Virus record (IMG/VR): IMGVR_UViG_3300042291_000273
Coordinates: 1 to 58,195 of that record
Direction: 5' to 3' (one strand)
Length of the DNA: 58,195 nt
From: a virus
Of this stretch, positions 17,269-48,458 are shown piece after piece (position 1 is the stretch's first letter; every line of letters starts with the position of its first letter). The notes under the pieces were generated by a model, which was given only the letters and a program-made list of their open reading frames with translations, did no database searches and had not been told where the DNA came from. A program made the position numbers and the translations under genes.

Positions 17269-17283
17269 AAGAATAAATACATC

Positions 17284-17733
17284 ATGCCAACATACATCGG
17301 ATTCAGTACAATAAATGCAGACAAACCAAAAACTACTAACGCTAGGCCCGGTAGTGATGCCGGCACCGGCGGTATAACTGATCCTATCGTATTTGGTAAA
17401 AAGTTTAGAATGGTGGATAGTCAACTAGTTATTCAAGACTTTATAAATGCACTTAATATACCCTTAGGACAAAAAGTAGGACAACCAGGATATGGAACTA
17501 CTCTTTGGAGTTTTGTATTTGAGCCTAATAATTTTGATACGCAGCAGCAGTTAGAAACTGAAGTCAGAAGAGTTGCTAGTTTAGATCCAAGACTTCAACT
17601 TAACTATGTAAATATTTATCCTCGTGACAACGGTATACTAATAGAAGTAGAAATGGCAGTAACTCCATTCAATCAAGCATTAGTTTTAAATGTATTTTTT
17701 AATCAAGATACTAGTGTAGCCTCTAGAATTTAA
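17284..17733 (+). CDS. gp25: Baseplate wedge protein, gp25-like (GPW/gp25 family)
   Basis: This 149-residue sheath-initiator protein of the wedge belongs to a family conserved from T4 to P2 and type VI secretion (TssE). Diagnostic segments are DFINALNIPLGQKVGQPGYG and TTLWSFVFEPNNFDTQQQLE. The G-x-(K/R)-x-x-x-P-x-Y-G-(T/S) and F-E-P motifs lead into a helix and a final beta hairpin, RDNGILIEVEMAV. The N-terminal 40 residues are Thr/Gly-rich. T4 gp25 has 132 residues, so size is normal. It starts 15 bases after the gp5-like stop and precedes gp6, the expected order for wedge genes. Confidence 0.9.
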   Translation: MPTYIGFSTINADKPKTTNARPGSDAGTGGITDPIVFGKKFRMVDSQLVIQDFINALNIPLGQKVGQPGYGTTLWSFVFEPNNFDTQQQLETEVRRVASLDPRLQLNYVNIYPRDNGILIEVEMAVTPFNQALVLNVFFNQDTSVASRI

Positions 17734-36100: not shown

Positions 36101-39100
36101 CTGAATATTCTACTGGGTTAACTCAAATAGTAGATACTAATTTAATATACTACAGCGCAAACGGAATAAATTGGACCGGTGTAAACTTTATCCCATCAGC
36201 TGGTGTAAACACAAGCACACCTAATGGATTTAATGGCGTTGCCGCTAACGGAAACAATATCGTAGCAGTTGGTGAAAATGGTGTTATATATTACAGCGAA
36301 AACGGTGCAAGTTGGTTGGGCGTAAATGAAGTAACAGTACTAAGTGTAAACTCTGCTACTGAACAATTAATTTTAACTAACACTGCTGGATTTGCTGTAA
36401 ACGATGTGATTAGATTCACTGATAGTTTTAGTTCTATTACTGCTGGAATTAGTTATTATATAAAAACTATCGTATCTTCAACTCAAGTTGAAATATCTAC
36501 AAGCTTAGGCGGCACAGTTCTAAATCTTACTGATGGAAGCATTCCGTTTAGAACTAGAATGTATTCATATCCTACTACTGCAACACTGAATGATGTAGTA
36601 TACGGTGATGGAGTGTTTATTGCGGTAGGTGACACAGGAACAATTAGAACATCTACTAATGCAATTACTTGGACTACGGTTGCCTCAGGTACTACAGAAA
36701 AATTAAAAGGAATTTCTCATAAAGAAACCGGTTCGTTTATTGCAGTAGGAGAAAATGACACTGTATTGTTAACTGATGATTATGGTGTTACTTGGACAGT
36801 ATCAACACTGTTTGTGGTAGCTCCTCCAATCTATGATATTCAAGGTGATGCATTTACAGCAGGTTACGCTCCTGAAGAATTGGTTGCAGGTATGGTAACT
36901 GACAATCTTGCAATGACAGTAAACACACGTCCTGGAACAAACTGGCCTGCTACTGAATATGCTCACACTGGTTATAATATAGTATCTTTAGAACTAAATC
37001 CAGTATCGTCAACTCAAACAGTGTATAGCTTTGATGGTGCTGCTCAGTACCCAACTGAAATATTTGTAGCTGTGATCAATGGTACTACTGGATTGTCTAC
37101 TACGATTTATGAAGGTACTGATTATGCAATTGACTGGATAAACAATATAATTACATTAACTACATCTATCGCATTTACCCCTGTTAGTGATACTCTACGA
37201 ATTGATGTATACGAAACAGGTAACGGTGATCAACTAGTTAAATCTAATTCTAAGACTGATCCTATCAGACTTAATACTGATACTGGCTTTAATGAAATTT
37301 ATCTAAACTGCAATTATTCAGGTGTTATATATTCTGGCAGTGGTGTAATACGCCCTGAAACATATTCAGTAGAAGTATTTGCTACTGCTACTGAATCCGT
37401 GACTAACAGAATATTGTGTGACAGTGTTCAACAGTTTGTTATAAATGAACCTATTAGATTCCAAGGAGTAGTATTTGGCAATATTGTAGAAGATCAGCAG
37501 TATTATGTAAAATCTATTAGTCCCGCAACTAATACTATTACTATTTCTGATAGCATTAACGGAATAACCGGAGTTGCAGGTTCTATATATGTGTTAACTG
37601 ATGCTACTGGATTAATGTTAGTAAACATTGAAATAGGTAGTGGTTTGGTTTGGACAGATCCTATTGTCACTTATAATGGAACTAAATTAGTAATAGGTAA
37701 TACTAATACTGCTGTTAAAACTAAGTCAAGCAACAACGCAGTGGTAACTGTATCTACAAATGGATTAATAGCTAACTCTCCCGTAACGTTTGGTGAGGGT
37801 ATATTTACAGGAAGCAATATTGATCCTCTTACTACATACTATATAAAAACTATCATAGATAGCAACGAGTTTACTATTTCTGAAACACCAAGCGGTTCTG
37901 TAAAAGTATTGGGTAATGCAAGTGGTAGATCAATGTACATAACAAACGACTATGCTATAGGATTAGCAAGCAATGGAATTTCAGCTAAATTAGTATTTGC
38001 TGCTCCGTACGACAACTCTACTGATTATCTGTCATATACAATATTTGGAGAAACATTCCCGGCACAATATGGATACACGCTACCAGAAACACAAATACTT
38101 TCTGGAGATGGTATAGAAGATACATTTGCGCTAAACAACTTTGTAGGCGGTGATAATCCTGGTAATGCTATTGTAGAAGTTGACGGTATTAGATTGTCAC
38201 CATTAGGTGATTATACTATAGATCCTGCTTTAGATGAAATTATATTTAACTCAGCACCTACTAATGGTAGTACTATAGCAGTTACTACGTTTAATGATAC
38301 TCAACAGCAGTATTTGAATACTCAGGTTATAGGTGACGGAATCTCAACTGCACCGGTAGTAAACGCTATTCAAAGTATATCTAATGAAATAACATTACCA
38401 CTAGCTGTTACTCGTGCTACTGCTACTACTGCGGGCGTACCTAATGAAATAACAGTAGACAGCACTTCAGGATTTGTACTCAACGCTACTGTAGAATTTA
38501 AAGGTATTTCGTTTGGCGGGATAGCAACTGACGGAACTGTGTACTTTGTTGATAGTATTGTAAGTAGCACTGTGTTTACTATCAAAAACGAAAACGGAAC
38601 TCAAATAGTAACCACACTAGGTACAGGTACTATACAAGTTACAGTAGGCGGAAAACCTGCTGTTAGAGTAACAACTGCTGCGGCTAACGGACTAAGTGAA
38701 AATGACTTAGTAAGAATAGATGGTACGTTAGGATCAATCCAACTTAATAACAATACTTACTATGCTAAGATAATTGATTCAACAACATTTGATTTATACG
38801 AATCAGGGATTCCAGGATATGCAGGTTATAATCCTGCATTCGGTGCTGTAAACTACCCGATTACTACTATTTCTTCTTATACAGGTGAAGGATATGTTTG
38901 GTTAGTAGATTCTTATTACTTAGTAACTCAAATTGCTACCGCTACAACTACATCAACTAACTTGATTACAGTAACTTCTACTAGTCAGTTAGTAGTAAAT
39001 ACGCCGGTAATATTTACCGGTTCTGTACTAGGTGGTTTAGTAGCGGGAACAACATACTATATACGTGCGATAGTTAGTGCAACACAGTTTACTGTTTCTG

Positions 39101-39990
39101 CTACACGAGGTGGAAGTTCAGTAGCTCTTAGTAATGATTCAGGGTCAATGAATGTAACTCAGTGGGAACACGTAAATACTGATCGTTTATGGGTAACAGT
39201 AAATGGTGAACGTGTACCTTCTACTAGCCTGAGATTAAATGCTGATAATAATTTAAGTATATTAACTTCTATAGATTCAAGTGACGTAGTAATCATAACA
39301 AGTATGATGCCATATGCTACTCCTGATGAAGAAATATATTTGAACTTTGTTGATACTATTAATGAAGCAAGTGTGTACAGAGCAAATACCGGTACTAGAA
39401 CTTGGTTAACACAACCTATCTATGACTTGAGTACTGTAATTTATGTAGATGACGTTACTCGCTTAACCAATACTATTGTTCAGTCAGTGACCACTCCTGC
39501 AGCAGTTTCTGGTAATTACAACTTTGGGTTAACAGCAGATAAGAGATTAATTACTAACGTTACAGTATACAACAATAGCACAAACGAGTTTATTTCTAGC
39601 GATAATTACCGAGTTGTGATAGAAGAGTTATCACCGATATTAAAAATAACAGCAGGTAGTTACATTAATGTAGGAAATCAATTAACAATTACTACTTTAG
39701 AAGGTAATTTGATTTATGTAAACGGTGAGCAAATCAGATTTGGATCAGTAGATTTAACTAACAACACATTAAGTAACTTAGAACGAGGAGTTAATGGAAC
39801 AGGAAAGCAATCACTGATACTAACTTATACTGAAGTTTTTGGGTTATTATCAAAGAATAGACTGTCAGATGTTTATTATAACCAAACTTGGAACCCAATA
39901 GATGACGCAATATTTAATACAGTCGACGGTGATCCATTACAGATAAGTGAAACTGTGTCTGCTGAATTCTTAAATACGGATATTTTATAA
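21193..39990 (+). CDS. Giant 6265-residue baseplate/tail structural protein in the gp7 position
   Basis: One frame of 18.8 kb runs without interruption. The first third looks like the large marine T4-like wedge protein in the gp7 position: MTRIRTLNFLPEIFQTKTNT, WDSFTDFDKIVNYNQYYWIP, SYRRSSAYPFDLMRIFALMK, and near residue 3602 LAGYINEVKPYHVVVKEFVF. Residues about 2380-3075 carry FG-GAP-like propeller repeats (WGSELAISGDQNWLYISD, DVMVVGAPDKDYDGN, SEILIGSPFE, DSVVISAPVA). Residues about 4815-5210 carry sialidase-type Asp-boxes (SNDGIVW, SANGINW, SENGASW, TDDYGVTW), recalling the propeller in T4 gp7. From residue 324, and mainly 4000-6000, a module of about 80 residues recurs roughly a dozen times: ...VN-x-P-x-x-F-x-G...G-TTYY-(V/I)...TIS...GG...GSM. 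Expected role: wedge plus fibre or adhesin. Domain calls are by eye. Confidence 0.7.
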   Translation: MTRIRTLNFLPEIFQTKTNTEFLSATLDQLVNPPITKKIQGYIGSKVGYGVNANDYYVTEPNKTRTDYQLDPGVVFTKTNQSTAQDFISYPGILDALELQGGITNNNSRLFESQIYSWDSFTDFDKIVNYNQYYWIPTGPPAVTVSSALVYSTNDYIVTDLANGYNIRELGASAGSTNPTITLLRGGSYRFTVNQPSQFWIQGEPGVSGFSPTQPNLPVRDVYGVSNNGATQGVVTFTVPSKDAQDEFIFPGNNLVDVISTLPFEDVNGAPLSALGSIDSITSLNNLRVMFYDTGVVNEIGYISAYYDETSFDTNDNALVAPLVVTIGSSNSSTDRFTLSTGNTSQLVVNNTITFNNPVFGGVTAGTIYYIKSVDSSTEFTISDTLGGATFPLTTDSGTMTANANQGLYEEGFYTTVSENFYRITYVVDPSDPTNPIIRLIPDGLIPTEQKITATYGSTWIDRQFYRNTLGVVSLVPYITAPLDQLYYQDGTSANKVGIIRIIENNTTNTINVETDILGKKNYTSTNGVVFTNGLKVEFDGDVIPSRYLSGQYYVEGVGSAIELISVETLVSPEDFTTSTFVPFDTTPFDLSNFDSDLFIPTDLDYITIARNAINKNAWSRSNRWFHSQVINQTAIYNNNPSIVTEFAKAENKARRPIIEFYPNLGLFNSGTRGKDAVDFIDQRTTDALSQIAGLNNYFPDVEVYTENTVSIASVVGTSTTITIPTADIVGTFQVGQYISDYLDILPNNTQITNITIAGNNTVLTVSWAVSQSVGSATSVAVIATDTTVNNYSIFSGARIIFAADTDVNVRNKIYVVALSQLSPSSVPVITLTEAQDGLCEENDQAVITRGYNNQGNTYYFSNDNWITAQEKVTVNQAPLFDVFDENGISFSDPTIYQGTSFAGCTLFSYGIGSGTDDPILGFPIRYSAIDNVGDISFDVSLNTDTFDYVTGTTPITQKVNTGYVFNYDDRTEYTRELGWQTAVAPSAQYQVFQFTYLKDNPSTTFVCDIAAISEVEGQDSWTSVQVYINNACQCVSEYSYTITANSTIIELLDVSELDSDTPIEVLILSNQVSNQAYYTIPVNLSNNPFNQDLETVNVGDIRLQYRDIYVNAPGMLGQVFGSNNYRDLGNLVPYGTNIIQNSASLVLPGTFLRKTNHNLFDALQFNSNEYTKFKNLLVDTINNAEYVQRYTPSEILDQAIDIITAAKSESQAFFWSDMLPAKSPLRSNTYTFANNLDTSIYPLTTTYNFATANYNGVIVYLSRIISGVTIQKQLIINQDYVISQDAPSLTVTLDLIAGDKITIKEYNQTYGSYVPNTPTKLGLYPAYTPQVVLDTAYTQPTYFIKGHDGSYNKLYGSYNTNLGVLEDFRDQGLLEFETRIYNNLKLSSTVPIQTYEVLPGFFRDTDYTYSEFLQMYSESFLNWVGQNRLNYKTQVFSKVNEFTYNYTNAANKLTNTPIEQGYWRGVYQYFYDTTTPNATPWEMLGFTDQPTWWTERYGPAPYTSDNLILWNDLEQGVIWNDGVPITVETVARPGLTNIIPVDSAGNLVSPFVAIVGNYNPNTFQRDWKVGDDAPVELSYRRSSAYPFDLMRIFALMKPANFFNLGVDVDNYKYNLEFNQYLVNNRSHLVISDVEIYGSGTAKTSYINWIVDYEKQIGINATENITNLLDNLDVRLIYRLAGYSDKNLLKFYVEKGTPNSRNASLLIPDESYSLLLYDNQPFDRIVYSGVVIQITQDGYTVFGNSQTNAYFKVLKPVNNGKYNNIQVEDAQVKVAVDYTANELLIPYGAKFYSEQEVAQFLSSYGAYLTSQGMIFNDVLGGIEVNWDQMISEFLYWSQTGWEVGSILLLNPSAQTLKIDKESSIVQPLTVQNTNFVLNQNLYPIQAKDLSVFRNGTEFSVTALNQGDTVSYGQFNLSNFEHAVVFDNTTLFNDTIYNLITGLRQNRIYVRGTKTAEWNGTITASGFILNQDNIKEWSRAVKYTKGSIVLYKNKYWTALKVIEPSNIFNERDWKETDYDQIQKGLLPNSSTRSYESALYYDTNKANLENDADLLGFSLIGYRPRDYMALVDLTDITQINVYQNLIKNKGTRNAIEAFRGATLPQGGIEYEVYENWAIKSGEFGGLLNKNFVDFKINEQYLTGNPSIVSLTNGVYTPGSQQEVPIYSLFNYARPIDSPNILSTIDPSTPTQVYPDAGYVNFDDVKMSSYFYSGLPVARDKNNEPVLINDFYVRDYAWLANYLGNWDVLAWTSVGRVIAVRSNLNNTATITFAQPHGLVRLQPLSIINYATNVDGYYIVANIVNLNEVIINLPVATEIASTGQGIGLTFQSQRVSNPASINNLPLLDTEFVKNTVWVDESTDGSWAVYRKSLNYQYNNEVTKTNSTTFGSAVAYTDQAGYLISDASAGEVYRYAQDSANNYFIVETLTGGTSFGSKIVYAGNTYVISEPTTASEVHVYVINDSQLSDDFVLYQTIAAPGGVTDWGSELAISGDQNWLYISDIANDKVHVYQKQNILLNAGYFVSGQTYVITDLGTTDFTLIGAIESKVGITFVATGVGTGTGAATQITYKASTIINGVALSLVSSTDKFSKSITTNYYGDVMVVGAPDKDYDGNIANWGSAFAFSRAVQNIEVQFNTIGQTFQLAWTPITVSRTVSATNATGNLITLNSVSGIAVNDPIIFSGTGLLGTGIQGNSVYYIRSIAGSDITIKTSRSSITPEAISTVGSVSNVTATVQTSPLYVSRNGVIVQDNNYGVIGSTFVYSGTLTAGDIITVSDSKFTYAQTFTSNYNNRVGTQFGYSLDTIQSGSEILIGSPFEISDENQEGAVYRFTNAGAKFGLVTGVNECNVTAVRPLLINGYFVNVPIGNATVVANAINSANITNIQAAATVDNKLMIQVINTDLTQVNQKLIITAVDTTTLTELGIEIYTNTQVINCPHEFGPTQFGSVVQFNEYDSVVISAPVATRYEGTTFDFIDDEDFTNDTIFDNNATQFIDTAPNAGAVYMFDYISNYNENLTNIGEFVYAQSVNSKDIVYGFNPLYGTALDFNSNVVMIGTPNFLPDSVDGQVTIYENESGIKDWSIYRNSAPIVNIDSIQNAQLFSAETNNTLINLDYIDPLQGKLLGSVRQNINYVTSIDPANYNSDEIFDPQSGLIWGPEKVGKVWFDTTNVRFVNYHQNDLVYNSKYWGTVFPGSDVAVYTWVVSNVSPRDYQGPGTPKDSTRYTVSSIIDSSNIVTPVYYFWVRNSNIIFREEGKTLSDTILESYISNPKNSGIAFFAPLRDNSFALYNCAEYINANDSVFHIGYANGTNDDEAHSEYTLIKEDFADDFLPGLPKLGSNAEPIGLYDRLLDSLAGVDEEGSVVPNPYLPKAVQSGVLARPRQSFFYNRYLALKNYLTYANEVLAQYPISEIRPDISLLFAQGEFYNTPDYWQYINWWTTGYDNNTKSAIQVPLYADLSTLSVATDTIVTVENNGSGKFEVYRYDGNSIWTRIGLENGTIEFNLTLWDYAEARLGFGDNFFDTSSYDEYPSEETRYIIRALNEQIYIDELLLFRNKGLILLFDYIQSESTESQNYLPWLNKTSLVDVAHTIRELKPIEVFQTDNQDFLAGYINEVKPYHVVVKEFVFKYTGIDTFDGNITDFDLPAQYDKSVNQFITPSLVYSNPNQDNEYVDTDDIWQTAPYTQWFQNKGVSLTGESNYEITTLVSYMTLGSSFMFVDNAQGFPINGTIRIGNEEIAYSSVDRALNLVSGLQRGLNGTAISQHFPNEKIFIDLPEVIVLNGGKGYVDPPRVTAYVDLDLYPAPTTEAVFEAVMSLDSVLSINVIDPGQGYMVLPEIRIDPSVVISFTNADINSTLHTIRVYGPNLATGDLVLFKQSDAGVGRLANNQWYYINVLETTPTAIVAFYSNYSDAINDTNRIQISDIGTDDQLTISLGAKASAITSASPIRENNITLRFDRTTYTSQVQDWRAGTYYGSFFAGSYFNSESVSSSSMQLESVLPPISSVLASAQGVAFEITDVDNDRQLTWSSLERNVGNTILATNAIRLIPLDDGSANPNASGSTIGFYEGMPVKFVGAVAGGLQENITYYVKTIINDTDFTVSLTEGGGTVTLTNATIPAAGLKCLAGEVVDTAVLTVNYPGILEVTATQAGTNALTVPMSLIGTGGTEGFYTNLPVFFTKYSVTEPVFGGVIENDVYYITTVINSQTFTISETQDPLSTTATATTASNNRVTVSSTDDFSVNDPIIFTGTTFGNIIAGTTYYVSEIVNTTQMTISTLINGGVFVLSNGAGSMLLTSQANTLTLSTATGSMTMNVSLPVSPGQVNGQLFTLYSTSEQYPNVSGTNSSLIERTMTATIATLDRITIDSSTGNTDDFYVNMPVQFDTTIGGLTAATTYYITDYGIVEIDAISTSSSNLITCDTTESLYVGMPIIFSGQGLGGITIGVEYFVESINIDGIRFTISDTDGGSVKILTNDSGSMLGTGEEYITVSASSGGSDVTLSNTVSDFDMTQEIIIDAIFDVSYILGGYRALVSTAGEGYAVNNTIVIPGADIGGATPANNLTLTVNTIDETDGGIIDVICSGIVAGTSDQYYLKVISPNQFEVYSNPLMTVPVTGIGFDFVGFTTTTATNITASNDRVTVTSSANFSVNDPVVFTGTIFSSQITLGQTYYIVDKPTATTVRLTTEPGGSVINFTTDTTGSMSMTKAGSFALLPEPFYFNQSIVKFNNRVYVCVVSNNDDDFIFGKWELLDSGDRRLNAMDRVVGYYQPTVNMPGVDLTQLFEGVTYPNSTYLGNPFAPAQQYELDTILQTQAFYPTDIDVASVVWNGTNYLAAASAPNYSAVLGSETGESWAVAKLTNAGIGLTDIIQANNIYVMSSTNSATPILRSNDGIVWTTTGTVTSEIGPQPISIAALSLQSVAYRNNLFVAVGEGIVSSSDTYDWTQRLAFTEYDNTLYGVSAVNVAAFTGFVAVGKGEVPEYSTGLTQIVDTNLIYYSANGINWTGVNFIPSAGVNTSTPNGFNGVAANGNNIVAVGENGVIYYSENGASWLGVNEVTVLSVNSATEQLILTNTAGFAVNDVIRFTDSFSSITAGISYYIKTIVSSTQVEISTSLGGTVLNLTDGSIPFRTRMYSYPTTATLNDVVYGDGVFIAVGDTGTIRTSTNAITWTTVASGTTEKLKGISHKETGSFIAVGENDTVLLTDDYGVTWTVSTLFVVAPPIYDIQGDAFTAGYAPEELVAGMVTDNLAMTVNTRPGTNWPATEYAHTGYNIVSLELNPVSSTQTVYSFDGAAQYPTEIFVAVINGTTGLSTTIYEGTDYAIDWINNIITLTTSIAFTPVSDTLRIDVYETGNGDQLVKSNSKTDPIRLNTDTGFNEIYLNCNYSGVIYSGSGVIRPETYSVEVFATATESVTNRILCDSVQQFVINEPIRFQGVVFGNIVEDQQYYVKSISPATNTITISDSINGITGVAGSIYVLTDATGLMLVNIEIGSGLVWTDPIVTYNGTKLVIGNTNTAVKTKSSNNAVVTVSTNGLIANSPVTFGEGIFTGSNIDPLTTYYIKTIIDSNEFTISETPSGSVKVLGNASGRSMYITNDYAIGLASNGISAKLVFAAPYDNSTDYLSYTIFGETFPAQYGYTLPETQILSGDGIEDTFALNNFVGGDNPGNAIVEVDGIRLSPLGDYTIDPALDEIIFNSAPTNGSTIAVTTFNDTQQQYLNTQVIGDGISTAPVVNAIQSISNEITLPLAVTRATATTAGVPNEITVDSTSGFVLNATVEFKGISFGGIATDGTVYFVDSIVSSTVFTIKNENGTQIVTTLGTGTIQVTVGGKPAVRVTTAAANGLSENDLVRIDGTLGSIQLNNNTYYAKIIDSTTFDLYESGIPGYAGYNPAFGAVNYPITTISSYTGEGYVWLVDSYYLVTQIATATTTSTNLITVTSTSQLVVNTPVIFTGSVLGGLVAGTTYYIRAIVSATQFTVSATRGGSSVALSNDSGSMNVTQWEHVNTDRLWVTVNGERVPSTSLRLNADNNLSILTSIDSSDVVIITSMMPYATPDEEIYLNFVDTINEASVYRANTGTRTWLTQPIYDLSTVIYVDDVTRLTNTIVQSVTTPAAVSGNYNFGLTADKRLITNVTVYNNSTNEFISSDNYRVVIEELSPILKITAGSYINVGNQLTITTLEGNLIYVNGEQIRFGSVDLTNNTLSNLERGVNGTGKQSLILTYTEVFGLLSKNRLSDVYYNQTWNPIDDAIFNTVDGDPLQISETVSAEFLNTDIL

Positions 39991-40780: not shown

Positions 40781-40788
40781 GATAAATA
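40781..40788 (+). promoter_or_regulatory. Late promoter (GATAAATA) before the tail fibre gene
   Basis: GATAAATA directly follows the previous stop. Initiation is expected near 40794. GGAG at 40799-40802 precedes the ATG at 40815 by 12 bases, a long spacing. Good match to the other late boxes in this window. Confidence 0.55.
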
Positions 40789-40814: not shown

Positions 40815-42029
40815 ATGGCATATACAATTGTAAAATCAGATGGTACTGTATTAACAACCATTGCTGATGGAACTATCAACACTACGAGTACTTCACTAGC
40901 ACTGCCTGGTAGAAACTATGCAGGATATGGACAATCTCAAGATACAAATTTTGTTCATGTTACTGAAAATTTTGCAGATACTACTCCTCCTCCAAACCCT
41001 CTAAGAGGGCAACTTTGGTATAGCACTAATAACAGTACTCTTTATGTATGTCCTACAGACGGTGAAGCAAATGCTCTTGCTTGGTTAGCATTGACTGCTA
41101 CTGCAAGCGGTGGTAATACAACTTTCGGTGCAGTTACAGTTACCGGTAACGTAACAGCAAATAATATTACAGCAGTTAATACAATTTCTGCTAATGCTTT
41201 TTCTGCTGGATATTTAACTATTTCAGCAAACGCAAATATAGCAGATGCAAATATAACTACTGCTAATATTGGCACACTTCAAACTACTGTAATAACAACA
41301 GGAGCAACCTCTACTCCGGGTACACTAACCGGTACTTGGACAGTTAATGGTTCAGCCAGCGGTAATGCTCTTGTATTAAACGGAAACTTGTTTATAAGCA
41401 ACTCGTCAGGTTCTAATATCTTTGGCATAAAAACCGACAAGTATATGTATGCTAACGGTGACATTATTTCGTTTGCAGGTTCTTACGCTAACGCTAACGT
41501 AGCAGCTTATTTACCTACATATGGCGGAAATATATTAACTGTACAAACTACTGCAACTGTTCTAACAACAGGAGCAAATACAACTCCCGGAACAGTAACA
41601 GGTAACTGGACTTTATCTGCTGGTTCTAGACTAAATGCTACATATGCTGACTTAGCAGAACGTTTTTCTGCGGATGATATTTATGATGCAGGTACAGTAG
41701 TAGAAATCGGCGGAACACAAGAAATTACTGCGGTTAAATATGAACTTTCTGAAGATGTATTTGGAGTAGTATCTAATACTGCGGCTTATCTTATGAATGC
41801 AGGTGCAGGAAATGATAACTCTCATCCTCCTATCGCAGTGTCTGGTAGAGTAGACGTTAAAGTTACAGGGATAATCAAGAAAGGACAGCGTTTAGTAAGT
41901 GCCGGCAATGGTATTGCTAGGGCTGCATTACCTGGTGAAGCTACTGCGTTTAATACGATAGGTAGAGCATTAGCAGATAAGAATACGGATGATTTAGGTA
42001 CGGTAGAAGCTATCGTAATGATACGATAA
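40815..42029 (+). CDS. Tail fibre protein with autoproteolytic-chaperone-like C-terminus
   Basis: This 404-residue fibre protein begins with a domain typical of T4-like marine fibres: LALPGRNYAGYGQSQDTNFV, then FADTTPPPNPLRGQLWYSTN. The middle is a Thr/Asn/Ala-rich repetitive shaft (VTGNVTANNITAVNTISANA) with two copies of a TTG-A-x-TTPGT-(L/V)-TG-x-W segment. The C-terminal 110 residues start ATYADLAERFSADDIYDAGT, then VFGVVSNTAAYLMN and PIAVSGRVDVKVTGIIKKGQ. This YADLAE...G-V-V-S...AYLMN pattern resembles peptidase_G2-type intramolecular chaperone/autoprotease domains at the ends of phage fibres. Cleavage and host specificity are not provable here. It precedes a second fibre-like gene by 13 bases. 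Confidence 0.7.
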   Translation: MAYTIVKSDGTVLTTIADGTINTTSTSLALPGRNYAGYGQSQDTNFVHVTENFADTTPPPNPLRGQLWYSTNNSTLYVCPTDGEANALAWLALTATASGGNTTFGAVTVTGNVTANNITAVNTISANAFSAGYLTISANANIADANITTANIGTLQTTVITTGATSTPGTLTGTWTVNGSASGNALVLNGNLFISNSSGSNIFGIKTDKYMYANGDIISFAGSYANANVAAYLPTYGGNILTVQTTATVLTTGANTTPGTVTGNWTLSAGSRLNATYADLAERFSADDIYDAGTVVEIGGTQEITAVKYELSEDVFGVVSNTAAYLMNAGAGNDNSHPPIAVSGRVDVKVTGIIKKGQRLVSAGNGIARAALPGEATAFNTIGRALADKNTDDLGTVEAIVMIR

Positions 42030-42042
42030 TAGGGAATAACAA

Positions 42043-42996
42043 ATGAGTTACGCACAATTTGGATTAATAGAAGCAACAGACTTTAACGCATTAGTAGGTG
42101 GTAATCCAACTGCAACTGCTAATACGCTAAATGCAACTTGGGCTACTGGTAGCGGAACTGCAGGTTATGGACAAACTGCTGTAGCTAACGTTACTGCTGG
42201 TAATACTGTAGCCGCAAGTAGTTGGAATTCACTTGTAACAAACACTGCTAACGTAGCAACACACCAGGGGTCTTCTATAACCAGTGTTACTGCTCCTACA
42301 GCCGGAGCAACTGTAACTTTCTTATCTGCTGTTCCTACTAACTTACAAACAATCTATACAAACAGATTAAACGCTGCTACTCAGTCAGGTACTACTTCAA
42401 ATGCTGTGACAAGAGGTACTACTTGGTCTACTGCATTAACATTTACTCACACTGCTACGTTTGCAAATGGGGACGCTGCTAGATTCTTTTTTAACTCGGG
42501 TGGTCAGTTAAAAATGACTGTATCACATGCTGATAACACAGCAGGTATTAACTTATTGTTCAATAACTTGGCTTCTAACGTAGGTACTGTAGTGTTAAGT
42601 GCTCCTAGTTCGGGTACTGCAAACATTGCAGGAACAAATTTTAATGGCATCCAAAAAGTCGGCGGAGGTGGAAGCTCACCTACTATTTCACCGAATAACG
42701 GGTACTATGCGTTAACTACTTCAAACGCTAACGTCTTTACTCAAACCGCATCTACCGGTCCTTCAGGTTATTTAAGTTCTTTTATTCGCTTTATCGTACA
42801 ATCAAACGGAACACAGGGATCAAACGGTGATGCCGGCTCTGTCATTACAATTAGCACTGTTTGGGACGAAGTTCCTGATGGTTTAGTAGTAGGTACAGGT
42901 TCTACTACTACACTAACTGTTACCCCACCTGAAGTAACTAATATCGCTAATACTTGGGGAACCATTACGTTAGCAGGATCAGTAACAGGATCATAA
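42043..42996 (+). CDS. Tail fibre/adhesin-like structural protein
   Basis: This 317-residue protein is very rich in Thr, Asn, Ala, Ser and Gly. The N-terminus has YAQFGLIEATDFNALVGGNP, then WATGSGTAGYGQTAVANVTA and AASSWNSLVTNTANVATHQG. The middle has GDAARFFFNSGGQLKMTVSH, followed by a beta-sandwich-like region ending TVWDEVPDGLVVGTGSTTTL. The FFNSGG-x-(L/I) segment is familiar from fibre-associated proteins of marine T4-like phages, where it is a conserved virion component. Start ATG 42043 lies 9 bases behind AGGGA. A receptor-binding role is inferred from position after the main fibre gene. No signal peptide or enzyme motif is seen. Confidence 0.6.
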   Translation: MSYAQFGLIEATDFNALVGGNPTATANTLNATWATGSGTAGYGQTAVANVTAGNTVAASSWNSLVTNTANVATHQGSSITSVTAPTAGATVTFLSAVPTNLQTIYTNRLNAATQSGTTSNAVTRGTTWSTALTFTHTATFANGDAARFFFNSGGQLKMTVSHADNTAGINLLFNNLASNVGTVVLSAPSSGTANIAGTNFNGIQKVGGGGSSPTISPNNGYYALTTSNANVFTQTASTGPSGYLSSFIRFIVQSNGTQGSNGDAGSVITISTVWDEVPDGLVVGTGSTTTLTVTPPEVTNIANTWGTITLAGSVTGS

Positions 42997-43010
42997 TAAT
43001 TTAACACACG

Positions 43011-43059
43011 ATCAGTATTCATCTAAATACTCGTAGGAGAACACAAGATGAATACTGAT
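43011..43059 (+). promoter_or_regulatory. 14-bp inverted repeat with late box: candidate translation switch
   Basis: ATCAGTATTCATCT (43011-43024) and AGATGAATACTGAT (43046-43059) are exact inverted copies around a 21-base loop. The loop holds the Shine-Dalgarno AGGAG (43035-43039) and the right arm contains the start codon ATG 43048. TCTAAATACTCGT (43022-43034) resembles the late consensus TATAAATACTATT. Initiation there, near 43035, would remove the left arm. Read-through RNA can fold and block the start; late RNA cannot. Confidence 0.65.
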
Positions 43060-43356
43060 ACGTTAATTTCAGATGTAAAAGCACGTTTCGCACACAACTC
43101 AGCCAAAGCATACCTTAAAGAAAAATACGAAGCTAAACTTATTGTAGCAGATCAAGGTGGACTTTGGAAAGCAGATCAACAAACGATTTCTACACTAAAT
43201 TCTTTTTCCGGTTTAAAAAATCTAATTTTAATAGACACTTTTGGAAATCCGTTACGGGTAGAAAGAGAAGAACTATTGAAAAAATTAAAAGAAGTTTATT
43301 TAACAGTAACATTTGAATGGTATCAAGAATGGCAGGAGTTAGAATCTAAGCGATGA
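43048..43356 (+). CDS. Conserved phage protein of unknown function, hairpin-controlled start
   Basis: This 102-residue soluble protein is helical at both ends: MNTDTLISDVKARFAHNSAK, a central LIVADQGGLWKADQQTISTL, LILIDTFGNPLRVEREELLK, and an aromatic C-terminus FEWYQEWQELESK. I do not recognise a domain of known function; small proteins of this look often follow fibre genes in marine T4-like phages and could be assembly factors. The start codon sits in the right arm of a 14-bp inverted repeat, with AGGAG in its loop, suggesting tight control. Its stop overlaps the next start (ATGA), so this gene may gate translation into the whole downstream glycan series. Confidence 0.6.
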   Translation: MNTDTLISDVKARFAHNSAKAYLKEKYEAKLIVADQGGLWKADQQTISTLNSFSGLKNLILIDTFGNPLRVEREELLKKLKEVYLTVTFEWYQEWQELESKR

Positions 43357-44153
43357 CTCGTGGTGCTATTCTTTTCGCGTTCAACTCTGACAAGTATGAT
43401 TATTACAAAATGGCAGTTGCTACTGCTAAACGTATCAATCATTTTTTAAACTTACCTGTTACAGTAGTTACTGATAAAGATTCCGTTCGTGAATCTGATT
43501 ATCAATTTGATAAAACTATTATTACTGTGCCCGATAAAAATAATAAACGAGATTGGGGTCAGTGGATTAACAAGGGTAGATATAAAGCATATGAGTTTAG
43601 TCCCTATGATGAAACACTTTTGCTAGACACGGATTATATGGTTAACTCTGATAAGCTATTAAAGACTTTTGATTTTTCTAAAGACTTTTGTTGTCATGAT
43701 CATACAGAGTTTTTTATGCAACCAAACTTACCTCAAGAAATGCTAAGTCCTTTTAGTTTTGAAACTCTTTGGGCTACTGCTGTTATGTTTAAAAAGACAA
43801 CAAAGTCGGAACAAATATTTGAATCGTTAAAAATGGTTCAACATAACTTTGAACATTATGCTAACATACACGGTTTCATTTCAACTACATTCAGAAATGA
43901 TTATGCTCTTACATTAGCATTGCGTTTAGTAAATGGACATATCTTACAGCAAGATAATATTATTCCATGGAGCTTGATGCATGTAGGAAAGAATACTCCT
44001 ATATCTAAAAATTCTAATGAGTTTTTAGATACTGAGTTTACTATAATGTATGATAACTGGCAACGCGGTAAAATAAGAAAAGAATATATTACAATCAAAG
44101 ATATGGACTTTCATGTAATGGTAAAAGAAGACTTTATGGAGTTAATAAAGTGA
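43353..44153 (+). CDS. Glycosyltransferase-like protein (GT-A fold, DTD motif)
   Basis: This 266-residue protein starts with a nucleotide-binding-like strand (RGAILFAFNSDKYDYYKMAV), then FLNLPVTVVTDKDS, and has a metal-binding DxD in ETLLLDTDYMVNS (D92-T-D94), the hallmark of GT-A glycosyltransferases of GT8-like layout. Middle segments (SFETLWATAVMFKKT) resemble the acceptor half. It would transfer a sugar from a nucleotide donor to an unknown acceptor. It overlaps its neighbours by 4 bases on each side. A similar but diverged protein is encoded at 44797. Substrate cannot be inferred. Confidence 0.65.
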   Translation: MTRGAILFAFNSDKYDYYKMAVATAKRINHFLNLPVTVVTDKDSVRESDYQFDKTIITVPDKNNKRDWGQWINKGRYKAYEFSPYDETLLLDTDYMVNSDKLLKTFDFSKDFCCHDHTEFFMQPNLPQEMLSPFSFETLWATAVMFKKTTKSEQIFESLKMVQHNFEHYANIHGFISTTFRNDYALTLALRLVNGHILQQDNIIPWSLMHVGKNTPISKNSNEFLDTEFTIMYDNWQRGKIRKEYITIKDMDFHVMVKEDFMELIK

Positions 44154-44800
44154 ATATATTTGAGTTATTAGATGCTAATTCTTTTATAGGTAATAGTATA
44201 TTTCCGTTTTATTTCATAAAAGATAACATTGTAATTACTAACGGTAAATGTGGTTCAAAAACGTTACACACTGTCAGTGACCGCACCTGGCGTACTACTA
44301 GTATCACTAGTACAGAATTTTTATCTAAAGTTGATCAGGGATACAAAGTACATTTTGTTGTACGAGACCCTCTGGCACGCTTTAGATCGGGAATACTAGA
44401 AGACTGGCGTGTTAACACACATTATTTAAATCATTTTTATGATGCAGATCGTATTGACGTAAACTCTTTTGTCTTGTATCGTCTTTCTGTAATAAATTCT
44501 GCACTAGACTATAGTCAGGAGTATCACATAAGTAATTGGCTAACAAGAATCACAGATGTTATTCAGCACATCCCAAAGAATAAAACTTATCAAATCTGGA
44601 AGCTAGAAGAACTACAATATATGTTATCATCTTTAGATATCTCTTATACACATATAACCGATAAAAAAGATAAGTCGTGTATTAAATTTCTTGAAAAATA
44701 TGATAACTTACCTAAAATAACAGTAGACATGATACAAGAATATTTGAAAAGTGAAATACAGATATATAATAAATTAATTGAGTTACGAGAACGAATATGA
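44150..44800 (+). CDS. Sulfotransferase-like protein
   Basis: This 216-residue protein carries both PAPS-binding signatures: a 5'-phosphosulfate loop NGKCGSKTL (K33-C-G-S-K-T38) and a 3'-phosphate motif VVRDPLARFRSGI (R72-D-P...S80). The remainder, ISNWLTRITDVIQHIPKNKT, is helical as expected for carbohydrate sulfotransferases. It would move a sulfate from PAPS to a sugar hydroxyl or amine. At 216 residues it is short for the family, with a compact N-terminus. Start is GTG at 44150, overlapping the upstream stop (GTGA). It lies between two glycosyltransferase-like genes, implying a sulfated glycan. Confidence 0.7.
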   Translation: MNIFELLDANSFIGNSIFPFYFIKDNIVITNGKCGSKTLHTVSDRTWRTTSITSTEFLSKVDQGYKVHFVVRDPLARFRSGILEDWRVNTHYLNHFYDADRIDVNSFVLYRLSVINSALDYSQEYHISNWLTRITDVIQHIPKNKTYQIWKLEELQYMLSSLDISYTHITDKKDKSCIKFLEKYDNLPKITVDMIQEYLKSEIQIYNKLIELRERI

Positions 44801-45594
44801 ACCGAGGCTTTGTAATTTTAGCACAAAATACCGACAAAGTTGATTATGTTAAGTGTGCCGCTGCATTAGCAAAAAGTATTAAAAGAGTAATGCCCGACGA
44901 ATCTGTAACATTAGTAACAATGGATTTGGTTGTAAGTGATTACGCAAAATACTTCAATCACATAGTAGAGCTACCGTACGGTGAATTAGAACCAGATAGT
45001 GATTGGAAGTTATCAAATGATTGGCAAGTATACCTAGCCTCTCCGTACGAATATACAATCAAATTAGAAGCAGATATGTATATACCAAAAGATATTACAT
45101 ATTGGTGGGATATTTTAAAAGAACGTGACTTGGTTGTATCTACTACGATAAGAAACTACAAGCAAGAAATTTCAGATGTACGAGTATACAGACGATTTAT
45201 TGATGACAATTGTTTACCTGATTGTTATAACGCTATCACTTACTTCAAGAAGTCTGACTTAGCTAAGCGTTTTTTTGGTATAGTTCTTGATGTATTTGAT
45301 AATTGGGATCAGTATCGCGCTATTTTAAAATGTAAAACCAATGAACTAGTAACTACTGATTGGGCATATGCAATCGCAAGTCACGTATTGGGTGTTGAAA
45401 ATACAACGTTACCTACGTTTAAAGATATGAGTATGATACACATGAAACAGTTTATAAACGGTACGTATACAGAAGATTGGACAGATACTTTTGTTTATGA
45501 AGTATTACCTAATCAAATTAGAGTACAAACAGTGCCGCAAATGTATCCATTTCACTATCATAAAAAAGCATTTGCTGATAGGCTATTGAAATAA
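44797..45594 (+). CDS. Glycosyltransferase-like protein (GT-A fold, EAD motif)
   Basis: This 265-residue diverged relative of the protein at 43353 begins RGFVILAQNTDKVDYVKCAA, then SVTLVTMDLVVSDYAKYFNH. The equivalent of the metal motif is E91-A-D93 in YTIKLEADMYIPKDI, an acidic variant of DxD. The C-terminal half contains TTDWAYAIASHVLG and MSMIHMKQFINGTY, where the HMK histidine may be part of the active site. It probably transfers a sugar; donor and acceptor are unknown. ATG overlaps the sulfotransferase stop. Duplication followed by divergence from the 43353 gene is likely. Confidence 0.6.
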   Translation: MNRGFVILAQNTDKVDYVKCAAALAKSIKRVMPDESVTLVTMDLVVSDYAKYFNHIVELPYGELEPDSDWKLSNDWQVYLASPYEYTIKLEADMYIPKDITYWWDILKERDLVVSTTIRNYKQEISDVRVYRRFIDDNCLPDCYNAITYFKKSDLAKRFFGIVLDVFDNWDQYRAILKCKTNELVTTDWAYAIASHVLGVENTTLPTFKDMSMIHMKQFINGTYTEDWTDTFVYEVLPNQIRVQTVPQMYPFHYHKKAFADRLLK

Positions 45595-45596
45595 CT

Positions 45597-45944
45597 ATGC
45601 AAAAACAAAATGAAGAAGGATACATTGTTTTATTTGAAGCTCCTAAGATAAGTACTCCTGAGTTTAGATTATACTATGATGAAAAAGGTAAAGTTATTTG
45701 TTACACATGTGAAAAGCTGCCCGGCAACTTTATTATTGTAGATAATAGTACGTTCGCACAAGCAAGACCTGATGTTCGCGTAGTAGACGGAAGAATAACA
45801 ACTGTTGTTTCTAACGCAGTAGTTTCTAAATTAATGCCATGCGACACAGGAAAGCTGTGCGCTGCTGAAGATATTAGCATAGTAGTATCTAAGAACCACA
45901 AAATTGCAACGACAAATTGGAAAATGATAACATATGAACTCTAA
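45597..45944 (+). CDS. Conserved hypothetical protein in the glycan cluster
   Basis: This 115-residue protein is beta-rich: EGYIVLFEAPKISTPEFRLY, YDEKGKVICYTCEKLPGNFI, IVDNSTFAQARPDVRVVDGR and a C-terminal MPCDTGKLCAAEDISIVVSK. There is no catalytic motif, signal peptide or membrane segment. The YYDEKGKVI-x-Y and RVVDGRI-type strands suggest a small beta-sandwich. It starts 2 bases after the preceding stop and overlaps the next gene by 11 bases, so it is clearly part of the co-translated series. Function not recognised. Confidence 0.55.
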   Translation: MQKQNEEGYIVLFEAPKISTPEFRLYYDEKGKVICYTCEKLPGNFIIVDNSTFAQARPDVRVVDGRITTVVSNAVVSKLMPCDTGKLCAAEDISIVVSKNHKIATTNWKMITYEL

Positions 45945-46884
45945 CGATATAATTGATATAGCTGATCTTGATGTAATTTATTTAAGTTTTGACGAGCCGG
46001 CCAAAGAAGAATTTTGGCTAAAGATAAAGAACATGGTGCCCTGGGCCAAGCGAGTAGACGGCGTGAAGGGCAGTGATGCTGCACACAAAGCAGCAGGCGA
46101 AATGAGTGACACTGATAGATTTATTTTGATTGACGGTGACAACTTACCCGAAGAATCTTTCTTTAACTTACAACTTGACTTTACTGGCAAAGATGATAAA
46201 TTTAAGAATGCTCAGTTTAGATGGAAAGCTATAAACGCTATAAACGGATTAAGATACGGCAACGGTGGTATTAGTTCTTGGACAAAAGAATACGTTGCTA
46301 ATATGAAGACGCATGAAAATCAAACTGAAGGTGATGTATCACGCATAGTAGATTTTTGTATGGATGCTGACAGTTCATATTACGCTATGTGGGATTCTTA
46401 TTCTACTACATATCCAAACTACACACCTTTTCAAGCCTGGCGAGCTGGCTTTAGAGAAGGTGTCAAAATGTCACTAGACAGGGGTAGAAAGCCAACAGTT
46501 GATGAATTCAAAGAAACTGTTGCTATGAGAAACGTAGACAACTTGACTATATGGCATAACGTGGGCGCAGATGTTACCAACGGTATGTGGGCTATATATG
46601 GTGCTAGGTTAGGAACGTATATGACAATGCTTACAGATTGGGATCATACCACAGTACAATGGTTTGATAATATAGCCGCACTTTGGGAAGAACATAAAGA
46701 CAGTGATCCTGCTTTAAAAATAATAACACTAGGTTTTAGTTTACATGATAAACTAGGCTTACCAGTAGACACGTTAAATAAAGAACAAAGTAAGTTTTTC
46801 AAAAGACACTACAAGCGAGATTTCAGAAATCAAGGCACACTAGTCACTGAAATGGAAGTAATCAGACGAATTGAGGGTTGGTAA
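45934..46884 (+). CDS. Glycosyltransferase-like protein (DGD motif)
   Basis: This 316-residue protein has an N-terminal IADLDVIYLSFDEPAKEEFW, then VPWAKRVDGVKGSDAAHKAA and a metal-type motif DRFILIDGDNLPEES (D67-G-D69), consistent with a GT-A nucleotide-sugar transferase. GLRYGNGGISSWTKEYV could be the acceptor loop. The C-terminal half is helical and aromatic-rich and ends before the radical SAM gene. I associate this layout with glycosyltransferase-annotated proteins in marine T4-like phages. The first 10 codons overlap the upstream gene. Sugar specificity unknown. Confidence 0.58.
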   Translation: MNSNDIIDIADLDVIYLSFDEPAKEEFWLKIKNMVPWAKRVDGVKGSDAAHKAAGEMSDTDRFILIDGDNLPEESFFNLQLDFTGKDDKFKNAQFRWKAINAINGLRYGNGGISSWTKEYVANMKTHENQTEGDVSRIVDFCMDADSSYYAMWDSYSTTYPNYTPFQAWRAGFREGVKMSLDRGRKPTVDEFKETVAMRNVDNLTIWHNVGADVTNGMWAIYGARLGTYMTMLTDWDHTTVQWFDNIAALWEEHKDSDPALKIITLGFSLHDKLGLPVDTLNKEQSKFFKRHYKRDFRNQGTLVTEMEVIRRIEGW

Positions 46885-46886
46885 GT

Positions 46887-48458
46887 ATGACTTCATTTGA
46901 AGAAGTTCAGTGGAATTTGAACTCACAGGGTAACATAGATCGCAATAATAGAGATAACATACTTGAAGTACGAGATTTATTGAACGAAACTGGAAGTGGA
47001 TTTTGTTTGGCTAAATTTACTCAAGTCACTTTACATTTAGGTACTGGGTTAGTACATTCTTGTCATCATCCAAAAACTCATAAAATACCGCTAGAAGAGT
47101 TAGAAAATAATCCCAATGCATTATTTAATACTACGCATTTAAAAAAAGCAAGACATGAAATGATGTCCGATAAAAAACCCACAGAATGTGAATACTGCTG
47201 GCGAGTGGAAGACACTGGTGAGATTAGTGACCGATACTTGAAAAGTATGGAGCCATGGGCACTAGAAAACCACGATACTATAATTAGTACTGATCCCAGT
47301 GATGATTTTTTCCCTACGTACTTAGAAGTAGATTTCAGTAATGTGTGTAATTTTAAATGTATATATTGCGGCCCGGAGTACAGTTCTAAATGGGCAGATG
47401 AACTAAGGCGTTTAGGTCCTCTTAAAGTTTTGGAGAATACTAAACATGAACAATGGATACAAGGGTATCAAGAAGGTTTAGAGAACCTAACGTATAAAAA
47501 CAACGAATGTAATCCTTATATTGATGCTTTTTGGAATTGGTTCCCTCAAGCATATACTAAACTTAAAACATATCGTATTACCGGTGGGGAGCCATTACTA
47601 AGTAAAGAAACATACAGAAGCATCGACTGGTTAATAGAAAATCCGAATATAGAATTAGAATTTAATATAAACACTAATCTGTGTGCCCCTGAAGCACTTT
47701 GGGATAAATTTGTAAATAAGATAGAACAGTTAGTTAAAAACAAATCGGTAAAAAAGTTTACAGTATATACTAGCCTGGACGCATGGGGGAAGCAGGCAGA
47801 ATATTTGCGACCTGGATTAGATATAGAGTTATTTAAACAACGATATATACAACTTCTAGATATTGGTAATATAAGAGTAACTACTATGTGTACTTTTAAC
47901 CTACTAAGCTTAACGACATTTATAGATTTGCTGAAATGGCAATTAGAGTTAAAGAAAAGGTATAATCCTGATAGTGCAGGTACGGTATGGGAATTAGAAA
48001 CGGGGTTTGTTATACCAGACTCCGGAGATTCATTTGTCACTAGGAATGCAAAAAATCCAGACCATATGAACGTAGTCGGAATAGATACTCCATACTTACG
48101 ATATCCTGAAGTATTAGATGCGCAATATGCTACTCCGGATTTGATACAGAAGTATCTGATACCGGCTATGAATTTTATGTCAGGAAACATGGCCGGTACT
48201 ATATGGGGTTCCTTTCAAGGATTTGAACCATATGAGATTGAAAAATTTAAAAGAGTGTGTTTGCAAATAATGCATTTCCAAAAGACATTACAATCAGACC
48301 CTAACAAAACTGCTCTGATCTATGCTAAATTTCATGACTACATAAATGAAATAGATACCAGAAATGAATCAGATTTTTTAGAAGTGTTTCCTGAATATAG
48401 AGATTTTTATATAATGTGTAAAAATAAAAGAGAAAATTTGATTGTGAGATCATCATGA
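46887..48458 (+). CDS. Twitch-domain radical SAM enzyme
   Basis: This 523-residue protein is an AdoMet radical enzyme with the CxxxCxxC cluster motif CNFKCIYC (C154, C158, C161) and a GGEP-type SAM-binding motif in RITGGEPLLS, followed by NINTNL and TVYTSLDAWG strands of the TIM barrel. N-terminal cysteines C59 (SCHHPKTHK) and C101/C104 (CEYCW) resemble the N-terminal twitch layout that binds a second iron-sulfur cluster. Such enzymes modify peptides, sugars or other small substrates; the target is unknown here. The start chosen is ATG 46887, 9 bases behind GAGGG and 3 bases after the upstream stop; a longer TTG start (46878) is unlikely. It sits in the middle of glycosyltransferase genes and its last 4 bases overlap the next gene. 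Confidence 0.82.
   Translation: MTSFEEVQWNLNSQGNIDRNNRDNILEVRDLLNETGSGFCLAKFTQVTLHLGTGLVHSCHHPKTHKIPLEELENNPNALFNTTHLKKARHEMMSDKKPTECEYCWRVEDTGEISDRYLKSMEPWALENHDTIISTDPSDDFFPTYLEVDFSNVCNFKCIYCGPEYSSKWADELRRLGPLKVLENTKHEQWIQGYQEGLENLTYKNNECNPYIDAFWNWFPQAYTKLKTYRITGGEPLLSKETYRSIDWLIENPNIELEFNINTNLCAPEALWDKFVNKIEQLVKNKSVKKFTVYTSLDAWGKQAEYLRPGLDIELFKQRYIQLLDIGNIRVTTMCTFNLLSLTTFIDLLKWQLELKKRYNPDSAGTVWELETGFVIPDSGDSFVTRNAKNPDHMNVVGIDTPYLRYPEVLDAQYATPDLIQKYLIPAMNFMSGNMAGTIWGSFQGFEPYEIEKFKRVCLQIMHFQKTLQSDPNKTALIYAKFHDYINEIDTRNESDFLEVFPEYRDFYIMCKNKRENLIVRSS

Follow-up and report, generated by a model that had tools for sequence, protein, structure and literature searches.

Translation of a 102-amino-acid (102-aa) gene in a 58-kb IMG/VR virus record (58,195 nucleotides, hereafter the window) is probably set by the origin of its RNA. 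A hairpin covers the start codon and overlaps a late promoter box, an arrangement that, judged from sequence, would form a T4-type translation switch insulating the gene from its neighbor's late transcript. RNA that reads through from upstream would carry both hairpin arms, fold, and hide the start region. RNA from the local late promoter would start at the Shine-Dalgarno sequence (43035), lack the left arm, and be translated. An ATGA overlap would then probably couple translation of the downstream glycosyltransferase-like gene. The main effect would probably be insulation from the neighbor's transcript, with consequences for dose and for any timing gap between the two late promoters.

A Late Promoter Box Overlaps a Hairpin That Covers the Start Codon

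The first-pass annotation of this DNA had proposed a perfect 14-bp inverted repeat with an ATG in its right arm and a late-type box over its left arm. The repeat was recovered both from the window sequence and by a repeat search, and the ATG and the box are where they were said to be. The main features are as follows.

43011..43024, + strand: hairpin left arm, which precedes the predicted late start (sequence, repeat search, fold)
43022..43029, + strand: late-type promoter box TCTAAATA, taken as positions -13 to -6 (sequence; position rule from passages of PMC2988020)
43035, + strand: predicted late transcription start (+1), the first base of the Shine-Dalgarno (from the T4 rule)
43035..43039, + strand: Shine-Dalgarno AGGAG (sequence)
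43046..43059, + strand: right arm of the hairpin, with the ATG at 43048-43050 (sequence, repeat search, fold)
43048..43356, + strand: 102-aa gene guarded by the predicted switch; confident predicted fold, weakly DUF4376-domain-like

The arms, ATCAGTATTCATCT and AGATGAATACTGAT, are 100% complementary (14 of 14 pairs Watson-Crick) and enclose a loop of 21 nt; the box stretch TCTAAATACTCGT occupies 43022-43034 of the window. The 61 nt from 43005 to 43065 have a minimum free energy of -24.0 kcal/mol (z -7.4), and none of 200 shuffles was equally stable, while RNA that starts at 43035 does not exceed its own shuffles in structure (z +1.3). Of 200 dinucleotide shuffles of the full window, 2 contained a perfect repeat of at least 14 bp with a loop of 3-40 nt, counted whether or not it covered an ATG.

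The Shine-Dalgarno, which had been placed in the loop, does lie there by position but is not simply free, as its GAG pairs with the CUC of the box in the predicted fold. Such pairing of box and Shine-Dalgarno, TACTC with GGAGT, is found in many relatives. The proposal that late RNA would lack the left arm agrees with the prediction, since a start at 43035 removes that arm and keeps the Shine-Dalgarno. As in a gp55-type promoter, the TATAAATA-like 8-bp box lies about one helical turn upstream of the predicted start, and a gp55-like sigma factor gave a weak match in all 10 large relatives searched (E 1e-6 to 4e-5).

The Layout Is Conserved in Related Leaders

We assembled leaders of relatives of the 102-aa gene. 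One alignment query drew on the best 80 of 213 IMG/VR stretches encoding relatives of the protein, and three further queries added others. The resulting 224 loci included the window and many repeats of one contig, and they yielded 120 distinct 150-nt leaders, the window's included; the set is a lower bound, as relatives exist beyond these 120. When kinship was judged by gene identity, 107 leaders remained at <90%, 83 at <80%, and 63 at <75%.

All 120 distinct leaders contain a NNTAAATA box, which has the form TCTAAATA in 101. In 115 leaders, the distance from the box start to the ATG is 23-44 nt, and a Shine-Dalgarno word lies downstream of the predicted start; the predicted +1 is upstream of or at the Shine-Dalgarno, and the word is kept to within 1 nt in 114 of the 115. 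The remaining five have no Shine-Dalgarno, and every one of them has its box closer to the ATG, starting 12 or 13 nt ahead of it. These two spacing classes are unmixed, in that none of the 120 leaders combines features of both.

The box is also distinctive in composition. Passages of PMC2988020 place the first two bases of the late box at -13/-12, and the base at -12 is C in 102 of the 120 leaders; at that position, A predominates in the other late boxes of these genomes. According to the same passages, the Aeh1 late consensus likewise has C at -12.

Predicted Opening Costs Resemble Those of T4 Genes e and 49

We compared the predicted cost of opening the start region on the two kinds of RNA. 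For the window, the cost was 15.7 kcal/mol on read-through RNA versus 1.3 kcal/mol on late-start RNA. Across the 120 leaders, the medians were 15.1 kcal/mol for read-through, 2.7 kcal/mol for the late start, and 8.8 kcal/mol when the part upstream of the box was shuffled, so that shuffling removes about two fifths of the median opening cost. We think that the shuffled cost stays high because the box itself, which the shuffle keeps, can pair with the Shine-Dalgarno (TACTC/GGAGT).

The first-pass annotation had advised comparing homologs for conserved pairing. Close relatives have not lost the pairing: the nearest are identical, and 112 of the 120 leaders keep a strong predicted switch, with a difference between read-through and late start of at least 5 kcal/mol. 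The difference is <5 kcal/mol in eight (L014, L100, L202, L057, L026, L060, L062, and L097), and L014 and L100 show none. At most 5 of 100 shuffles were as strong in 93 of the 120 leaders; 27 fail that mark.

Under the same computation, T4 gene e (nearer box) went from 15.7 to 1.4 kcal/mol, gene 49 from 16.0 to 3.6, segB from 16.1 to 5.0, and I-TevII from 15.4 to 8.1. The switch of T4 soc, a published case, was not recovered by this computation (7.2 to 6.6). Thus the analogy originally drawn to T4 e, soc, and 49 stands as a predicted mechanism for e and 49, with segB behaving alike, but not for soc. On the long RNA, the helix is predicted to sequester the Shine-Dalgarno and/or the AUG; the RNA from the late promoter, whose start we infer from the T4 rule, would lack the 5′ arm and retain the ribosome site.

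RNA Entering the Hairpin Is Probably Late

Two genes on the same strand precede the hairpin.

40781..40788, + strand: late box GATAAATA of the 404-aa gene, 34 nt before its ATG (sequence)
40815..42029, + strand: 404-aa virion-type, fiber-like gene; Peptidase_G2-like match below the Pfam cut-off
42043..42996, + strand: 317-aa gene directly upstream of the hairpin, with no family match

Synteny is strong: 118 of the 119 loci from relatives contain a relative of the 317-aa gene. A late box precedes the 404-aa gene, which lies two genes upstream of the 102-aa gene, in all 64 loci where its start was found, and in the window that box, GATAAATA, is the probable source of the read-through RNA. When five same-strand genes between 10.6 and 43 kb were searched against PHROGs, three were virion-type (10652, 17797, and 40815) and two had no match. 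Because the upstream genes are virion-type and the late box is present in 64 of 64 loci, RNA entering the hairpin is probably late.

These findings give no support to the earlier view that the read-through RNA is early, and they leave an early-to-late delay of the whole pathway unproven. The classical logic of T4 gene e, in which early or middle read-through RNA is silent, late RNA is translated, and the glycan series would be delayed, is described for T4 in passages of PMC3014915. The anatomy and energetics of the window match those of T4 e, and ten sigma70-like matches, all loose, lie between 10.6 and 43 kb on the + strand. However, all ten fall inside two long ORFs and none starts after 37,418, and the virion-type genes and invariant late box upstream also count against this logic, which we consider unlikely here. 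Insulation from the neighboring late transcript fits the sequence better than an early-to-late delay. We therefore keep the mechanism and doubt the early/late purpose, since the RNA reading in is most likely late RNA of the fiber operon; on that ground we infer that insulation, rather than a block on early RNA, would be the main effect.

The same stretch of the window contains a single 6265-codon ORF (21193-39990) downstream of the baseplate wedge gene. The wedge protein matched 68 phage records, with 32-35% identity among the 15 matches listed, and the matches include jumbo phages that we take to be T4-related, our label for CBB, Phosso, Atu_ph07, and the like. CBB, Phosso, and Atu_ph07 likewise have large structural genes adjoining their wedge genes.

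Compensatory Changes Preserve Pairing of the Arms

With the register set by the window, we counted 17 same-branch compensatory events on the gene tree, compared to 0-6 in 12 slid registers. Simulated nulls gave 4.0 +/- 2.0 and 3.7 +/- 2.0 events, and none of 400 simulations reached 17 in either. Among the 63 leaders whose genes are <75% identical, the helix run was 5.57 for a leader's own arms versus 4.44 for swapped arms (0 of 500). In 34 of the 120 leaders, 79.8% of cells were paired versus 23-36% in slid registers, with double changes in 8 of 13 pairs, a count that leans towards structure because these 34 were hand-picked for alignability. Examples of paired arms are listed below.

Window: TTCAT/ATGAA
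L071: ATATCCAT/ATGGATAT
L132: TCTATATTC/GAATATAGA

Three further results count against this reading. In the 34-leader set, 65 of 500 shuffles had at least as many further pair types, which makes that count unremarkable; RNAalifold on these chosen leaders recovered only 6 pairs (-2.8 kcal/mol). An R-scape-like pairwise covariation test, whose null was tree-based, ranked a canonical pair first of 1260, but the pair was not significant (E 0.88). The power of the pairwise test is limited because the right arm is nearly fixed by coding. As pairwise covariation was not significant, we rely on the aggregate tests, in which pairing is kept by compensation under a criterion that is our own and unpublished.

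The arms could instead be a protein-binding operator, in DNA or RNA, that serves autoregulation, with pairing a by-product of symmetry. The symmetric repeat overlaps both promoter and start codon, I-TevI is known to repress itself at its late promoter (passages of PMC2988022), and four of the five relatives that lack a Shine-Dalgarno retain the hairpin. We nevertheless find an operator very unlikely: the arm sequences change with compensation, and L022, L025, and L029 place other hairpins, in other registers, around the same box, which suits pairing over a single recognized sequence.

It is also quite improbable that the left arm is conserved as promoter or spacer alone and pairs incidentally. 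That the left arm partly overlaps the box, that the conserved start of the protein leaves the right arm little freedom to vary, and that strict pairwise covariation is not significant would all fit such a constraint. Against it are the aggregate compensatory changes and arm-swap tests, the loss of opening cost in upstream-shuffled leaders, and the rank of the 102-aa gene among late-box genes (see below). A transcription terminator or RNA processing site, suggested by a stable hairpin that starts in the 51-nt gap between two genes, is extremely unlikely: the hairpin extends into coding sequence, Rfam has no match in the window, and we rejected the terminator because no T-run follows the hairpin and the stems before a T-run that satisfy mild terminator criteria, in 18 of 120 leaders, lie further upstream of the box.

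The 102-aa Gene Heads a Glycan-Like Series

The hairpin had been described as guarding the first gene of an overlapping glycan series, and the next gene bears this out.

43353..44153, + strand: 266-aa gene, with an ATGA overlap with the 102-aa gene; glycogenin-like predicted fold

The 266-aa gene has a relative in all 119 relatives' loci. Of 21 loci examined, 19 have the start of this frame within the stop codon of the 102-aa gene, and its start was not found in the other two. The predicted fold is glycosyltransferase-like. Further downstream are weaker matches to sugar nucleotidyltransferases and to a mannose-6-phosphate isomerase domain. A twitch-domain radical SAM protein (NF033640, E 8e-87) is encoded at 46878-48458, within the series. 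The glycan series is thus supported by the glycogenin-like fold, the radical SAM protein, and the sugar-enzyme matches.

The 102-aa protein of the window had no Pfam or PHROG match at 0.01. Comparison of its fold to those in the PDB gave only weak matches (best E 0.26; prefoldin-like, 0.39). Against viral models, the matches were a single near relative with 34% identity and, from E 7e-3, DUF4376-domain proteins. A role in fiber assembly is only a guess. A tblastn search of 50,697 phage records with the protein found no relative, and thus no cultured one, and a DNA search with 42500-46000 gave no match. One relative, L090, was found among genome contigs; this contig is labeled as a Rhodobacteraceae MAG and may be a phage contig in a bin.

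Some Leaders Predict Leaderless Starts

In four of the leaders without a Shine-Dalgarno (L034, L132, L139, and L217), the predicted +1 falls on the A of the ATG; in L100 it falls one base later. The leaders of this type, with a box 12 or 13 nt before the ATG, and an example from the window are as follows.

L034 (2716): leaderless-type leader
L100 (2001): leaderless-type leader
L132 (2001): leaderless-type leader
L139 (2001): leaderless-type leader
L217 (2001): leaderless-type leader
17272..17279, + strand: box AATAAATA, 12 nt before the ATG of a 149-aa gene at 17284 (window)

By prediction, both start types occur in the 102-aa gene family, and four of the five leaderless-type leaders retain a hairpin stronger than nearly all shuffles (0, 0, 2, and 0 of 100 as strong), L100 being the exception.

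Other genes show the same spacing. In five related genomes (L227-L313), with start codons assumed to be the first ATG, boxes are concentrated 12-13 nt ahead of the ATG; with its first base at -11, TAAATA was counted 63 times versus 7.7 expected from the positional mean. Leaderless-type box spacing is found in 102 of 1741 genes, and a Shine-Dalgarno word in 6 of these 102; for comparison, 133 of 217 genes whose box lies at 21-45 have such a word, as do 547 of the other 1422 genes. An accumulation at 12 nt before the ATG is also seen for sigma70-like -10 hexamers (26 genes; L227-L313). A Shine-Dalgarno is present in 0 of 35 genes with the -10 at 11-14 nt versus 56 of 87 with it at ≥17 nt, which suggests from sequence that early mRNAs may be leaderless too. 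In ten large relatives, the pattern ATAAATAN(4,5)ATG gave 232 matches versus 57 when read backwards and 54 at spacing 8-9. For T4, CBB, Phosso, Atu_ph07, and XbC2 together, the same three patterns gave 12, 16, and 19 (our sums), with no excess.

Of the 153 ortholog groups found in four or more genomes, 25 include one or more leaderless-type members; three or more members are of this type in 7 groups, and all five in 3. As the layout is patchy across orthologs, it has either been gained and lost or start codons have been misassigned. We considered whether a hairpin is a general trait of the leaderless class and rejected this: the median opening cost of the 102 genes was 3.8, versus 3.5 shuffled, and 12 of 102 had at most 2 of 40 shuffles as strong, without enrichment of strong hairpins.

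If real, the leaderless class would have a T4-type late promoter feeding 5′-AUG translation, and it predicts host ribosomes that accept leaderless mRNA. Phage transcripts are often leaderless according to passages of the AR9 paper (PMC5312081), and excerpts of PMC4117421 report 375 leaderless mRNAs in C. crescentus and describe them as frequent in Caulobacter. Within the mostly non-subscription literature that we searched, no paper combined TATAAATA and leaderless, which does not imply absence from print. We tentatively propose that this phage group may have two forms of dependence on the 5′ end, a hairpin on some Shine-Dalgarno genes and a leaderless start in a second class. Either would deafen a gene to its neighbors' transcripts and tie it to its own promoter; for leaderless-type genes, read-through copies would lack any ribosome site.

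Strong Predicted Hairpins Occur at Other Late-Box Genes

We applied the opening-cost computation to 115 late-box genes with a Shine-Dalgarno from five large relatives. The difference between read-through and late start was at least 8 in 18 of these, and in 28 at most 2 of 50 shuffles were as strong, against about 7 expected, by our estimate, if shuffles are exchangeable. In each of two genomes, the 102-aa gene comes out on top among the late-box genes (22 in one and 21 in the other), and it ranks 1st, 6th, and 22nd of 115 in the pooled five-genome list, from which the G006 copy (leaderless-type) and the G003 copy are absent. The G003 copy was missed because the first-ATG rule took an earlier ATG; its leader, L047, goes from 15.7 to 2.6. 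Three other genes lie under strong predicted late-box hairpins; two are homing-endonuclease-like and one is head-tail adaptor-like.

L265:18238-18861, - strand: strong predicted late-box hairpin
L307:457-1029, + strand: strong predicted late-box hairpin
L248:12310-13107, + strand: strong predicted late-box hairpin

Comparison with Known Switches

In T4 genes e, 49, and soc, as passages of PMC3014915 describe, a hairpin hides the Shine-Dalgarno and/or AUG on long RNA, and a late promoter lies over the 5′ arm so that late RNA lacks that arm. The window has the same layout of hairpin and promoter, and its predicted energies are similar to those of e and 49. It differs from T4 e in that the upstream RNA is probably late, not early; the guarded gene is not a lysis gene and heads a glycosyltransferase-like series; the predicted +1 is the first Shine-Dalgarno base; and in five related leaders the Shine-Dalgarno is missing and the start is predicted to be leaderless.

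Promoter-plus-hairpin switches have also been reported for I-TevI, I-TevII, I-TevIII, segB, and Aeh1 mobE (excerpts of PMC2988022). The logic is the same, and the two homing-endonuclease-like genes of this group have a strong predicted switch of this kind. In contrast to those targets, the 102-aa gene has no sign of a mobile element, its neighbors being present in 118 and 119 of 119 loci. Leaderless mRNAs of Caulobacter and other alphaproteobacteria (passages of PMC4117421) likewise start on the AUG; unlike these, the starts predicted here follow a T4-type late box in a phage and, at this gene, occur in 5 of 120 leaders, four with a hairpin.

By prediction, then, the mechanism would be that of a T4-type promoter-plus-hairpin switch, placed in a new setting, a large uncultured T4 relative. 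The new elements are how deeply it is conserved, that it probably acts between one late transcript and another, and the predicted leaderless start as an alternative. A device known, in the portions of the literature consulted, from about ten T4-family genes is extended to a large uncultured group (120 leaders), with a different likely purpose, the separation of neighboring late transcripts.
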